Below are positions 43,990 through 49,312 of a stretch of 64,000 bases of DNA, piece by piece. The position numbers were made by a program, and so were the translations under genes. Position 1 is the first letter of the stretch. Every line of letters starts with the position of its first letter. Source of the stretch: Diacronema lutheri (lineage: Eukaryota; Haptophyta; Pavlovophyceae; Pavlovales; Pavlovaceae); the NCBI GenBank assembly GCA_019448385.1, contig JAGTXO010000003.1, positions 806,001 through 870,000 of the forward strand, in the 5' to 3' direction. Under the pieces are notes generated by a model. It was not told the origin of the DNA. It searched no databases and was given only the letters and a program-made list of their open reading frames with translations.

Positions 43990-44238
43990 GCCGCGGTGGC
44001 GGTGGGCGGAGCGCCGAAACGCCGCGCCCTGGCGGCGCGGCGCCGGCCGCCGCCCACAAGCAACATGCTTCGCGTTCCTTTCGCGCAATGATTGACGCCC
44101 AAGCCGCCGTCGTCGTTCGGCGTCGTCGCACAGGCGCACCCAGTCGCGAGCACGCGAATGAACCTTTGGCTAAAAGGTATACCCCCAATACCGGGTCTTG
44201 GCAGGCGGTGCACCTGAGTCGCGAGGTTCATCGAAACA

Positions 44239-45648
44239 TCAGAAGAAGCGCGCCGCGCGCCTCTTGTAGCCACCAAAGAGCGACGGCAGGTTGCAGCCAT
44301 CCGAGGCGATAGGGTAGCCGCGCGAGGCCTTCACCTTCTTGGCCGCAAGCTCCGCGTCCACGGCCTGCGGTGCGGCATGCGCGGCGCGCGCGCAGGAGCC
44401 GGCGCGCGCACACACAGCCGGGCGAGCGGGCGGACGTGTGGGCGCTGCAGCAGGCAGGCGGGCATGCGCGCAGGCGCGCGCGCGCCTTCCACTGCTGCTG
44501 GAACGTGGAGTATGACTCGGCTTGCCGTCCTGGCCCCACGACGACGTCCACGCCGCCTGTCGACGCGGACTGCGAGATGACGTGAAAATCCTTGTGCCCG
44601 TACGCCTTTGCGACCGCAGCAGCAACATCCGGCCGCACGCGCATCTCGCTCGTCGGGATCACGCCCTGCCGCCGCGGCTGGTCCGGCGGGTGCTTTGCGT
44701 TGGCGAACACCTCCGCCGCCGCGATCCCGTGCACCGTGCGCGTGCGCGCGGCCTCGGGCGCGAGCACGCCGTACGAGCGCAGGTGGCCGGAGGAATTTTC
44801 CCAAGAAGCCTTTTCAGCGCGCGAGAGCGCGAGCTCGTGGCGCATCTGTGCGAGCGAGACGCGGAGCTGCGATTCGTGCGACGAGAACGATGCCGCGTCG
44901 AGTGCGCGCCAGAGCAGCGTGAGCGAGAGCGTCGGCGCGCCCGGCCCGCCCGTCAGCTTGAGCACGCGCGTCTCGTTCGTGGCGGCGCGCAGCTCGCCGA
45001 CGCGAAGCGACGCCCTGCCCTGCAGCTGTGAGTACGCGGGTGACTTGACCTTGCGCATCGAGTCGTCGTCGTACACCTCGACGTGCAGCGTATCGCCGCG
45101 CGCGCAGCTGAGCTGCAGCTGCTCGTTCCAGAGCGGCTCGAGCGACTTGATTGTCGATGAGCGCTTGGGCTCGCCGTCGTTGATGCGCAGCGACACGTAC
45201 GAGTCAGCGAGGCCTGCGGCTCGTCGAGGAGTGTGACGCGGACAGGATCTTGAGCATGCGTGGTGAGCGGATTCAGATGGCCAATGCGCCGGCGGCACGC
45301 ATCCGCGTGCGCCGAGCGGTGCGCGCGCGCGCGCGCGCGCGGGCGCACCGTCGTCGTCGAGCGGGTAAAAGTTGCGACCACGCTGGACTTCGATGAATAG
45401 GCGGCCTGGCTTCTTGTCCGGGTCCATCGATGCACCAGTCGGCGGACCGTATTTGTATTCCCACGTGACCAGCGCCCTGCGATGGCGTCGCCATGCGCGC
45501 GAGCGCGCAGGCCGTGCGCGTCACACGGCGGAACGCGGCGCGCGCGGATCGACCGGCGCGGTGCGCATCAGGCGACGCACTTCTTCTCGCGCTCCATCGC
45601 CTCCTTGAAGATCGCAGTGCCAATCGTGTCGGTCGTCGGGACGTTCAT
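44239..45648 (-). CDS. C2-domain protein, four exons
   Basis: Exons in coding order are 45581-45648, 45349-45476, 44486-45213 and 44239-44364, giving 349 residues (MNVPTTDTIGT to YKRRAARFF). Phases fit at each join: EREKK/ALVTWEYKYGPP, YPLDDDG/LADSYVSL and QQQWK/AVDAELAA. The C2 fold, a calcium- or lipid-binding beta sandwich, starts at RLFIEVQRGRNF and runs through DSYVSLRIND, LEPLWNEQLQLS and LHVEVYDDD; acidic residues sit at the usual calcium loops. C-terminal sequence has a helical segment (SLAQMRHELALSRAEKASWE) and an ordered tail I do not recognise (VRPDVAAAVAKAYGHKDFHV). Introns 45477-45580 (104 nt) and 45214-45348 (135 nt, stopless) are GT-AG; 44365-44485 (121 nt) appears GC-AG. It shares a 169-bp divergent spacer with the potassium channel gene. 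Exon 1 could begin further upstream. Confidence 0.8.
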
Positions 45649-45817
45649 TGTCGAAAAGACAGGCAATCAGCGCCCCCCTTGGCGCGGCGCGCGCGTGCCG
45701 GCCTCGGCCGTCACGAGCGACGTAACGTTCGATGTTCGCCCCCAGGCGACACACTATGGAAATATACAATTATGGGGATAATATTTGAAAGTTGAGAAAG
45801 CCACCGGCCTCCTATTC

Positions 45818-47691
45818 ATGACGACGGCCTGCGACCTCGGTCCGCGAGAGCTGGAGCGCGGCACGACCATCCGACTCGTCGAGCACGCGTGGGACAGCCA
45901 CCTGGTGGCCACTTCAATTGCGGCGCTTCTACTCAATTCAGTGCTCGCTTATGACGTCGAGCGCGTGCCGCTCAGCGTCGGCGAGCCGACGTTTGCCGCG
46001 CTTGCGAACGGATCAGTGCATGCCGACGTGGAGACGTGGCCCGATACTCACGCGATGGTTTTCCGGCGGCACGTGCGTGTGCGGCAGGATGTGGTCTCGC
46101 TTGGCACCGTCGGGTACGGCGGCCAGAGCGGATTGTACGCCACACCGTCGCTCCTCGATCCGGCGGCGTCTTGGCGCGCTCTCCGGCTGAACGACACGAT
46201 GTCTCGCGCGCCGACGAGCGCCGAGCTCGGGCGGAGCGCGTCGGACGTGCACGTGGGCGCCGAGGCGCTGTGTGCGCCCGAGCCCGCGCGCTGTCCGCTC
46301 GTCATCCACCCATCGCGTGAGTACGAGGAGGGCATCGTCGAGGGGCTCGTCGATGGGCTCGGCTTGGACGCCGCGGTGTGGTACGCGCAGAGCGAGGGCG
46401 CTTTCAACCGGCTCGTGCGCGAGCGCGTGGAGGCGGGCGAGCCGACATTAGCATACGCGTGGCGACCGAGCCGTCTCATCGCGGGCCTCGCCTCTGAGCA
46501 GTTTTCGCGCGTCTTCCTGCCCGAGCATGGCCGTGGGTGCACGCACAACTTGACGGCGAACGACCGCCGCGTCGAGTGCGATTTCCCGACGCAGACGCTC
46601 GTCAAGCTGAGCGCGTCCAACCTGGCGCGGCGGCAGCCGACGGCCGCGCGCCTGCTCTCCGTGTTCACCATCCCGCCGAGCGTGCTCGATGAGATGATCG
46701 ACCGACTCGCGCGCACGCGCGGCGCGGACGACACAACGAAGGACGGCGTGCGCCGCGCTGCGGACGACGTCGCGTGCGCGTGGCTGCAGGAGAACCGCGA
46801 GCTGTGGGCGCCGTGGATCACGTCGGCACGCGCGAGCAGCGCGCCCCAGTCCGCCGCCCTCGCCGGCGGTCTCCTCGTCGGCGTCAGCCTTGCTCTGTGT
46901 CTCCTCACGTGCTGTTGCGAGCGCCTCCGCCAATCAGCGCTCATCGCGCGTCGCGCGGCCGTGGCTCGCGGCGAGGCGCCGGGCGCGCTGGGCGGCCGGC
47001 TCCACGCGGCGAGTCACGGGCTGCCGCGGCCGATCGCGCGCGTCGTGCGCGCCATCTCGCGCGTCCATAACACGGCTGCGCGTCGGCTCGGCTTCGCGCC
47101 GAGCGCGGCGTGCGCCGCGCGTGCGGTCGCGGTGGCGCGTGACGAGCAGGGCGGGGCCGGCGCGCCGTCCGCTGGCGCACCCGCCGTCGCACCCGCCGTC
47201 GCCGCCGTGACCTCTCCCGAGCCGCCACCGCGCACCGTCGGCGACGCTCCGGCAGCGCGCGCGGCGCCCTCGCAGTCGTGCGTCTCGGGCAGGACGTGCC
47301 GGCAGCTCGCCGTCTCGATCGGGCTGATCCTCGCCTCGCTCGCGCTCTCGGCGGCATTCTACGGCGTCGTCGAGGGCTTCTCGCTCGTCGAGAGCTGCTA
47401 CTTTGCCGTGCGCGCCGCGCCGCGCGCGCGCCGCCCTCCCCGCCCCAAGCCCCCCCCCCCCCCCCCCTTCCCCTGGGCGCATGCACACCGACCCTCCCAC
47501 GTACCACGCCGCCCTCCCCGCCCCAAGCCCCCCCCCCCCCCCCCCCCCCCCCCCCCCTGGGCGCATGCACACCGACCCTCCCACGCACCACGCCGCCCTC
47601 CCCGCCCCAAGCCCCCCCCCCCCCCCCCCCCCCCCCCTGGGCGCATGCACACCGACCCTCCCACGCACCACGCCGCCCTCCCCGCCCCAAG

Positions 47692-47722
<31 letters not shown>

Positions 47723-49312
47723 TGGGCGCATGCACACCGACCCTCCCACGTACCACGCCGCCCTCCCCGCCCCAAGCCCCCCCCCCCCCCCCCCCTGGGC
47801 GCATGCACACCGACCCTCCCACGCACCACGCCGCCCTCCCCGCCCCAAGCCCCCCCCCCCCCCCCCCCCCCCCCCCCCCTGGGCGCATGCACACCGACCC
47901 TCCCACGCACCACGCCGCCCTCCCCGCCCCAAGCCCCCCCCCCCCCCCCCCCCCCCCCCCTGGGCGCATGCACACCGACCCTCCCACGCACCGCGGCTCC
48001 TTGCCGCCCGAGCGCGCAGGTGGTCACGTTCACGACGGTGGGGTACGGCGACGTGACGCCCAAGACGGTGAAAGGGCGTGGCTTCACGATCCTCTTCGCC
48101 CTCCTCTCCATGGGCGTTCTCGGCATCGCGCTCGTCACCTTCGTCTCCGCGCTGCTCGAGGCGGAGGCGCGTGCGCGCAAGCGTCTCCTCGACGCGTCGC
48201 TCCGTTCGCTCGACCGGATGCGCAGCCGCTCTCGCGCGCGCCTGCCCAAGCACTCGCCGCTCGGCGGCCGGCTCGGCCATCGCGCGCCACGAGCGGGCGG
48301 CCATGCTGCCGCGCTCGCTGGCGCGGCATCGCTCGACACGCCGGCAGCGGTCGCTGCCGCGCAGCTGCACGCACCCGTCGCGCCGTCCGGCCGCGCGGAC
48401 GGCGACGCGCATTCGAACGAGGAGGAGATTGCGCACGTGATCGAGGAGCAGGTCCAAACGCCGCTGCAATTTGCGCTGACGGCGTTTCGCCTTGCGCAGC
48501 CCATCCTCCTGTGCATCTGCCTGCTCGTCGCGCTCGGCTGCGGCCTCGAGGGCTACAGCCTCGTCGACGGCATCTATTACGCGGTGATCAGCGTCACGAC
48601 CATCGGCTTCGGCGACCTCTCGCCGCAAACGGCGAGCGGGCGCGCCTTCGCGTGTGTGCTCCTCCCCTTCTCCGTCGCGTCCACCGCCAAAGCGGTTTCT
48701 GCGCTCGTGCAGCACACGCAATTCCAACTGCTCCTCTCAAAGACCAAGGACGTCACCAAGCTCCTGCAAAGCTCGGGCGCCGCGTCGCTCACGGAGGTCG
48801 AGTTTGTGCTGCACGTGCTCGTTGTCCTGTACGACGTCGACGACAAGGTCGCCGACGCGCTGCACGCCCAGTTCCGCGCGCTCGACCGTGATCGGAACGG
48901 CGTGCTCGACCTGGCGGACCTCATCGAGTGCAGGCGGCGCGAGGAACCCCTTCTGTCCGTGCGCCAGCAACTCGCGCGCAGGCGAGCGCCGCCTGCCGGC
49001 GCCGTCTCCGTGCTCGCGCAGCTGCGCGCCCGGGCACGCGGGCACGCGCGCAAGGCGCCGGAGCACGCCCCGATGCCCGCGCACAGCGCAGACTCCGAAT
49101 CCGTCGAGCACGCGCGAGCCGGCGCGTCCGACGAGGTGGACGTGCGAGTGAGCCGCTCGCCTGCAATGGACGGCGTGGACACGACGGCGGACACGGCCGC
49201 GCCGTCGGCTGGGGGCGGCGTGGCCGACGTCGAGCGCGCAGACGGCGCGGCGGATGACCGCATAGCTGACGGGACGTGCGAGGGGCAAAATTCAGCGGCG
49301 GATCGCGTGTGA
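45818..49312 (+). CDS. Betaine-binding-protein/two-pore K+ channel/EF-hand fusion
   Basis: Exons 45818-47407 and 48020-49312 give 960 residues. Residues about 17-300 match the ProX/OpuAC family of periplasmic glycine-betaine binders: RLVEHAWDSHL, ADVETWPDTH (ProX NWTPLH), GEPTLAYAWRPSRL (ProX YYTWTPYW), RRQPTAARLLSVF and the end LWAPWI. Two of the three tryptophans of the ProX ligand box appear kept; the third (GWGCEG in ProX) aligns with SREYEEG. A helix at about 344-368 follows. Then come two pore units: M1 near 494-517, filter TTVGYGD (535-541), M2; and M3 near 691-709, filter TTIGFGD (about 724-730), M4. Both filters are potassium-selective. An EF hand (FRALDRDRNGVLDLADLIE) lies near 814-838. 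Predicted topology: binding domain outside or lumenal, EF hand cytosolic. No signal peptide is visible; AG acceptors at 45787-45800 leave room for an upstream exon. Confidence 0.85.
47431..47990 (+). repeat. Minisatellite, seven units with poly-C tracts, inside a channel intron
   Basis: Seven copies of TGGGCGCATGCACACCGACC-type sequence start at 47474, 47558, 47638, 47723, 47796, 47880 and 47961, giving spacings of 84, 80, 85, 73, 84 and 81 bp. Each unit continues through a CCCTCCCACG(C/T)ACCACG part and GCCCTCCCCGCCCCAAG into a C run of roughly 17-30 bases. Length differences are almost entirely in the C runs. The array fills the 612-nt intron 47408-48019. Run lengths may be uncertain in the assembly. 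Confidence 0.95.

Follow-up and report, generated by a model that had tools for sequence, protein, structure and literature searches.

The window analysed here is a 64,000-nucleotide stretch of the Diacronema lutheri genome (contig JAGTXO010000003.1, positions 806,001 to 870,000), and all coordinates are counted from its first letter. At 45818-49312 on the plus strand lies a gene with a single intron, whose 960-residue product joins a complete substrate-binding domain of the OpuAC family to a tandem-pore K+ channel in one reading frame. The product keeps the conserved residues of a betaine-type ligand pocket and both K+ selectivity filters. The gene occupies most of an open frame of 1176 codons (45782-49312, plus strand), and both of its boundaries are exact, with the ATG at 45818 and the stop codon ending at 49312. 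The splice sites are predicted from the sequence. The main features are as follows.

45818..47407, plus strand: exon 1, residues 1-530 (OpuAC, extra membrane helix, basic linker, M1 and the start of P1)
45857..46825, plus strand: OpuAC (PF04069) substrate-binding domain, residues about 14-336, from Pfam, tblastn and hhalign
46859..46915, plus strand: TM0, the extra membrane helix, residues 348-366, followed by CERLRQ
46916..47305, plus strand: basic linker between TM0 and M1, residues 367-496, net charge +12, predicted to be cytosolic
47306..47362, plus strand: M1, outer helix of the first pore unit, residues 497-515
47408..48019, plus strand: GT-AG intron of 612 bp, containing a poly-C minisatellite (84 bp x 7)
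48020..49312, plus strand: exon 2, residues 531-960 and the stop codon
48032..48052, plus strand: selectivity filter 1, TTVGYGD, residues 535-541
48089..48145, plus strand: M2, residues 554-572
48491..48547, plus strand: M3, residues 688-706
48596..48616, plus strand: selectivity filter 2, TTIGFGD, residues 723-729
48653..48709, plus strand: M4, residues 742-760, the weakest hydropathy peak among the pore helices
48884..48919, plus strand: EF-hand-like loop DRDRNGVLDLAD, residues 819-830, under the Pfam cut-offs

A preliminary description, made from the letters alone, had proposed a ProX/OpuAC-like domain followed by a two-pore K+ channel in normal order and an EF hand. The blocks it listed (EHAWDSHL, VETWPDTH, YAWRPSRL and QPTAARLL), the two filters and the loop DRDRNGVLDLAD indeed lie in one frame. 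Searches against Pfam-A place OpuAC (PF04069) well over threshold at residues 17-303 (56.1 bits against a cut-off of 21.2, E 5.6e-15), followed by two stretches of Ion_trans_2 (93.9 bits, E 5.6e-27). The EF hand fared less well: despite the canonical loop, the five EF-hand models that match (E 0.024-0.15) all fall under their cut-offs. An Ion_trans match also lies below its cut-off, and these families are the only ones in the protein; neither PF00497 nor PF00060 is among them. As a control, none of six overlapping open frames in other frames or on the other strand matches a Pfam family at E <= 0.01.

The OpuAC part is a homologous domain and not a transporter subunit; it is fused to a channel and lacks a detectable signal peptide, and so is not the exported partner of an ATP-binding cassette (ABC) transporter. 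A tblastn search of 72,556 plasmid records gave 13 with alignments spanning 98-99% of the domain (identity 21.5-24.1%, E 6e-11 to 2e-4), and hhalign against four bacterial homologues gives a probability of 99.1 over 278 collinear columns, with both lobes present. Identity to bacterial homologues is 21-25% in those compared by BLASTP and 15-29% in MAFFT alignments. Among solved structures, the domain as query best matches the Bacillus subtilis glycine-betaine protein OpuAC (2b4l, E 1.7e-5) and then the trimethylamine N-oxide (TMAO) protein TmoX (4xz6, E 0.13); a mixed profile, A1 (seven rows, six of them bacterial), instead places TmoX (4xz6) and DmpX (7yle) at the top. NCBIfam equivalog models score far under their cut-offs (ProX, 33.8 of 215 bits; choline-binding protein, 14 of 379 bits). 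This gene is the only PF04069 match found in the D. lutheri genome (two pieces of one gene, and a single place by protein search). A tree of 20 OpuAC rows was discarded: three rows came from the wrong strand, and the D. lutheri domain sat on an end branch of 2.34 at a weak fork.

In the channel part, the four pore helices M1-M4 are present as hydropathy peaks at residues 497-515, 554-572, 688-706 and 742-760, with M4 the weakest both by hydropathy and by an insertion scale. Its sequence matches in the PDB include KCNK2 and TOK1. The genome holds at least 19 Ion_trans_2 stretches. Two channel paralogues were compared by BLASTP. The nearer (C75:238773-239781) is 33% identical over 176 columns covering the second pore and tail; examined within C75:236000-242500, it lacks a match to OpuAC, and its M1 exon, judged by eye, starts close upstream. 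The other gave shorter matches, confined to the pore. In two further D. lutheri tandem-pore channels the EF-hand motifs stand between the pore units and not in the tail: for one (L110:2602-4374, plus strand) several EF-hand models exceed their cut-offs, and for the other (L109:2022-3791, minus strand) all fall below.

The ligand pocket was mapped by alignment to characterized binding proteins, and three of its elements stand out.

45890..45892, plus strand: W25, first Trp of the predicted prism, equivalent to TmoX W55, DmpX W35 and Lactococcus lactis OpuAC W330, absent in Escherichia coli ProX
46037..46051, plus strand: W74-P-D-T-H78, second prism Trp and predicted carboxylate-binding His, from alignments
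46454..46462, plus strand: Y213-A-W215, third prism Trp, with a Tyr at the place of DmpX Tyr200, from alignments

In L. lactis OpuAC, three Trp build a prism around glycine betaine while a His holds the carboxylate (PMC2861598), and profile alignment pairs W25, W74 and W215 with W330, the Trp of WLPNTH and W484 of that protein. The site of E. coli ProX consists of W65, H69, W140 and W188, with H69 as the carboxylate ligand (PMC10087775, Table 2); that of TmoX comprises four Trp and a Glu (PMC8918994), and that of DmpX four Trp, Glu113 and Tyr200 (PMC10030565). Numbering varies between these sources. The TmoX ligand Glu is Glu131 in PMC8918994 and E122 in PMC10087775; PMC2861598 prints H392 for the L. 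lactis His, and counting from row ends in chain 7ahc gives His 382 and Trp 377 for WLPNTH. The printed H392, like W337 in PMC10087775, appears to be a misprint or to follow a different numbering.

Conservation of the aromatic positions was assessed in A1 and in a second alignment, A3, of 24 loci taken from the 80 of a bacterial alignment; those 80 are mostly from Rhodobacteraceae and represent the best of 573 relatives. The places of W25, W74 and W215 hold Trp in all 24 A3 homologues and in six, six and five, respectively, of the six bacterial rows of A1. The His is rarer: place 78 is His in none of the 24 and in one of the six, a Nonomuraea sequence where it stands beside a gap. The spacing W74-x3-H78 is that of ProX (W65-T-P-L-H69), with the OpuAC type W-L-P-N-T-H one residue longer; in an OpuAC-like protein of Listeria innocua the His likewise lies at W+5, not W+4, and MAFFT puts it one column off. 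Tyr213 matches DmpX Tyr200, and the same Tyr occurs in two other relatives. The Nonomuraea locus carries a second such binding protein followed by a choline-dehydrogenase-like oxidoreductase frame (both named by eye).

By sequence, then, the ligand pocket is kept (W25, W74, W215 and H78). The earlier suggestion of betaine, choline or dimethylsulfoniopropionate (DMSP) as ligand holds in that the aromatic pocket would suit a quaternary-ammonium or sulfonium solute, and can be narrowed to the glycine-betaine type. The predicted pocket favours a carboxylated onium zwitterion, glycine betaine first, with proline betaine or DMSP as possible ligands; choline is less likely because of H78. TMAO was rejected as a ligand because removal of the Glu in SAR11 TmoX abolished TMAO binding (PMC8918994), and that Glu is Ser104 here. 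A search of the genome for betaine aldehyde dehydrogenase returned 14 matches, the best at 530.2 bits, below the cut-off of 668.6 and too low for any firm statement on betaine synthesis.

In a tandem pore of normal orientation the chain enters M1 from the cytosol, and with one extra helix before M1 the OpuAC domain would be either extracellular or inside a vacuole lumen. The charges point the same way: the 15 residues before TM0 carry +1, the 15 after it +3, the linker +12 and OpuAC -7. Cys241 and Cys254, absent from ProX and the Listeria protein, are common to all 24 A3 and all six bacterial A1 homologues, and such a pair, as in exported proteins, fits a non-cytosolic domain. All three N-x-S/T sequons lie within residues 1-345. 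TM0 might serve as a reverse signal anchor.

From these features we infer an orientation, a dimeric assembly, a ligand and a gating mode. By analogy with known tandem-pore channels, two subunits would assemble into a single four-fold K+ pore that carries two OpuAC domains, outside the cell or in the vacuole lumen, each held by its TM0. A glycine-betaine-like zwitterion would sit in the W25/W74/W215 prism with its carboxylate on H78; closure of the OpuAC lobes would then pull or twist TM0 and act on the pore through the cytosolic linker, favouring either its open or its closed state. Calcium in the cytosol may additionally tune the channel via the EF-hand-like tail loop. Overall, with a slight lean in favour, the protein is probably a tandem-pore K+ channel gated by a substrate-binding-protein domain within the same polypeptide, a combination that arose independently of the glutamate receptors. 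The fuller proposal is more tentative, and we hold it with somewhat less than even confidence: glycine betaine, or a related zwitterion such as DMSP, would directly gate this eukaryotic K+ channel. Binding protein plus K+ pore would then have been invented independently a second time, by combining an osmolyte-transporter domain with a normally oriented tandem pore, and the channel would turn solute level into K+ flux and voltage.

Several observations weigh against this interpretation. In the pocket, Ser104 replaces the Glu of the TMAO/DMSP binders TmoX and DmpX, and their fourth Trp is lost, with R167 or E168 in its place depending on the loop alignment; ProX lacks the first Trp, so that this residue is not universal. 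Pairwise BLASTP is weak for E. coli ProX (8e-4) and not significant for the Listeria protein (E 0.27), and the pocket mapping to these two proteins is therefore based on multiple and profile alignments. As regards targeting, 199 possible first-exon splices were enumerated and the best for each of 14 start codons was viewed, none of which resembled a signal peptide; the frame is closed 36 nucleotides 5' of the ATG, with a promoter-like AT-rich island directly upstream. The Cys pair is missing in whole or in part from three of the eight relatives in another alignment (A6) and is thus not universal, and a count of three sequons over 345 residues is not unusual for shuffled sequences (P 0.08), four of 12 Asn lying outside that stretch. 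The first helix of OpuAC is unusually hydrophobic (15-residue mean 2.1 vs at most 0.38 in the 24 A3 homologues). Finally, no relative carrying the fusion was found in the protein database or in prokaryotic and viral contigs. Helix 1 spans residues 27-47 (45896-45958), its hydrophobicity is nearly that of a signal or membrane segment, and it could itself be involved in targeting.

The alternative that survives best concerns the membrane rather than the mechanism. The channel may sit in the vacuole or another endomembrane, where a lumenal OpuAC would read stored betaine or DMSP and K+ exit would follow the solute content of the organelle. Helix parity places OpuAC equally well in a lumen, the sequence holds nothing that names the plasma membrane, and Arabidopsis TPK2 and KCO3 are found at the tonoplast (PMC7757853); this version is nonetheless considered rather unlikely. 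Less probable again is a relic or structural ectodomain, in which OpuAC has lost solute binding and only aids assembly or anchoring of a constitutive K+ leak channel. The low identity to bacterial homologues in BLASTP (21-25%), the missing Glu and fourth Trp, and an insertion that brings two additional Cys (C152 and C159) into the domain are what such a relic might show, but the three Trp and the His of the betaine site are kept despite that low identity and both lobes are present, a retention of side chains that would be unexpected in a relic.

The organization of the gene bears on whether an OpuAC protein and a neighbouring channel have been read as one, as the absence of a full-length relative from the protein-database searches might suggest. 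OpuAC, TM0, the linker and M1 are all encoded by exon 1, a single 530-codon exon without a stop, making two separate genes unlikely. The eight lowest-GC (guanine plus cytosine) 46-nucleotide stretches of the whole 64 kb all begin at 45748-45755, directly 5' of the ATG, and none lies inside the gene. Third-position GC is 0.86 in exon 1 and exon 2 alike, and ranges over 0.75-0.97 across windows starting at 45848-47288 and 0.80-0.95 in those over the linker; in parts of the linker the first codon position is as GC-rich as the third or richer, so that codon periodicity is weak there. The intron is almost as GC-rich as the third positions of the exons, and these values therefore back coding only mildly. 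Taken with the single exon, they leave the two-gene explanation very improbable.

The intron sits within the first pore loop and has no stops in any of the three frames, which is why the preliminary description saw a single frame. Excising it gives ...SCYFA|VVTFTTVGYGD..., the normal pore of a K+ channel, and restores the pore helix SCYFAVVTFTTVGYGD. Its 612 bp, made up mostly of the seven-copy minisatellite, are a multiple of three, and retention would add 204 proline-rich residues to the first pore loop. Upstream of the gene lies one further feature.

45753..45800, no strand assigned: AT-rich island, 26% GC vs 73.3% GC in the window, a probable promoter shared with a divergent C2-domain gene

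This island is probably a bidirectional promoter between two divergent genes. The divergent neighbour (44231-45520, minus strand) encodes a C2 domain (37.6 bits) and has a long GC dinucleotide run within its frame. Bacterial contamination or very recent transfer, which might be considered because OpuAC domains are otherwise known from transporters of bacteria and archaea, can be set aside almost entirely: the gene has an intron and a C2-domain neighbour and sits in a 43.5-Mb assembly, a pattern scan of prokaryotic genome contigs confirmed no close relative among 21 stretches, and 11 of 299 Pseudomonadota genomes matched at no better than 24.1 bits.

Searches for relatives covered, besides the D. 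lutheri assembly, genome and contig collections from prokaryotes, viruses and plasmids. In the protein database, queries with the fusion, with region 15-340 and with the domain alone (the last to E <= 10) returned no homologue among 8000 candidates each. The tool needs shared five-residue words, missed bacterial relatives found by tblastn and has a eukaryotic coverage that is not established, making this null weak evidence of absence. In viral contigs, the scan with the OpuAC pattern gave one stretch and four scans with bacterial queries gave 0, 7, 94 and 2 pattern matches, none confirmed. A search of the D. lutheri genome for SBP_bac_3 gave no matches, with 12 of 14 controls detected; the corresponding Lig_chan search detected none of its controls and is uninformative. 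No OpuAC-channel protein is described in the titles and abstract openings that searches of the open-access literature brought up.

To our knowledge, no direct compatible-solute sensors have been described in algae. If the proposal is true, compatible-solute concentration would be converted straight into K+ flux and membrane voltage, and osmotic and solute sensing could be tested through one gene, that of a channel which carries an osmolyte-binding domain itself. Because betaine and DMSP figure among the main currencies exchanged by marine algae and bacteria, a direct electrical response to them would matter ecologically. The recipe of the ionotropic glutamate receptors, a bacterial binding protein plus a K+ pore, would also have arisen more than once from different parts.

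Among known systems, the OpuAC/ProX glycine-betaine proteins (L. lactis and B. subtilis OpuAC, E. coli ProX) share with the D. lutheri domain both lobes, the three-Trp prism of the L. lactis type and the His spacing of the ProX type. The D. lutheri domain differs in being carried by a channel rather than an ABC transporter, in its eukaryotic gene, in its hydrophobic helix 1 and in an identity of only 15-29%. TmoX and DmpX (4xz6, 7yle) resemble it in the Trp at 25, 74 and 215 and in Tyr213 at the place of DmpX Tyr200; unlike them, it has Ser104 for the ligand Glu and a replaced fourth Trp, and its sequence alone gives 4xz6 only at E 0.13, with 7yle not among the matches listed.

Eukaryotic membrane receptors with type II periplasmic-binding-protein domains are represented by class C G-protein-coupled receptor-like proteins of anaerobic fungi, in only about 30% of which a canonical signal peptide was recognized (PMC5168858). 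Unlike the D. lutheri protein they are of the receptor kind and not channels, and neither betaine nor OpuAC occurs in the text available from PMC5168858.

Tandem-pore K+ channels (plant TPK, animal K2P/KCNK and fungal TOK) share the two Ion_trans_2 units and the GYGD and GFGD filters. Plant TPK channels carry C-terminal EF-hands that provide a calcium input; the tail of the D. lutheri protein has one EF-hand-like loop, with EF models below cut-off. It departs from all of these channels in its large N-terminal binding domain, its extra membrane helix and its long basic linkers.

The closest conceptual parallel is GluR0 and the ionotropic glutamate receptors, which likewise couple a substrate-binding-protein fold with a pore of the K+ type. 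Under KCl upshock, cell volume is shaped by GluR0 (PMC13099474), and by analogy a shared osmotic role is plausible. The parts differ: the D. lutheri protein matches OpuAC rather than SBP_bac_3 (PF00497) or Lig_chan (PF00060), its OpuAC domain stands whole ahead of both pores with no pore inserted in the ligand domain, and each chain has two pore units. Opposite pore topology is reported for GluR0, whereas the pore order in D. lutheri is normal and its orientation is predicted to be so. Fusions of a binding protein with a K+ pore are thus already known from GluR0 and the ionotropic glutamate receptors; new here are the binding-protein family, the domain order, the number of pores and, probably, the orientation, and there is a real chance that this protein is the first member of a separate class.

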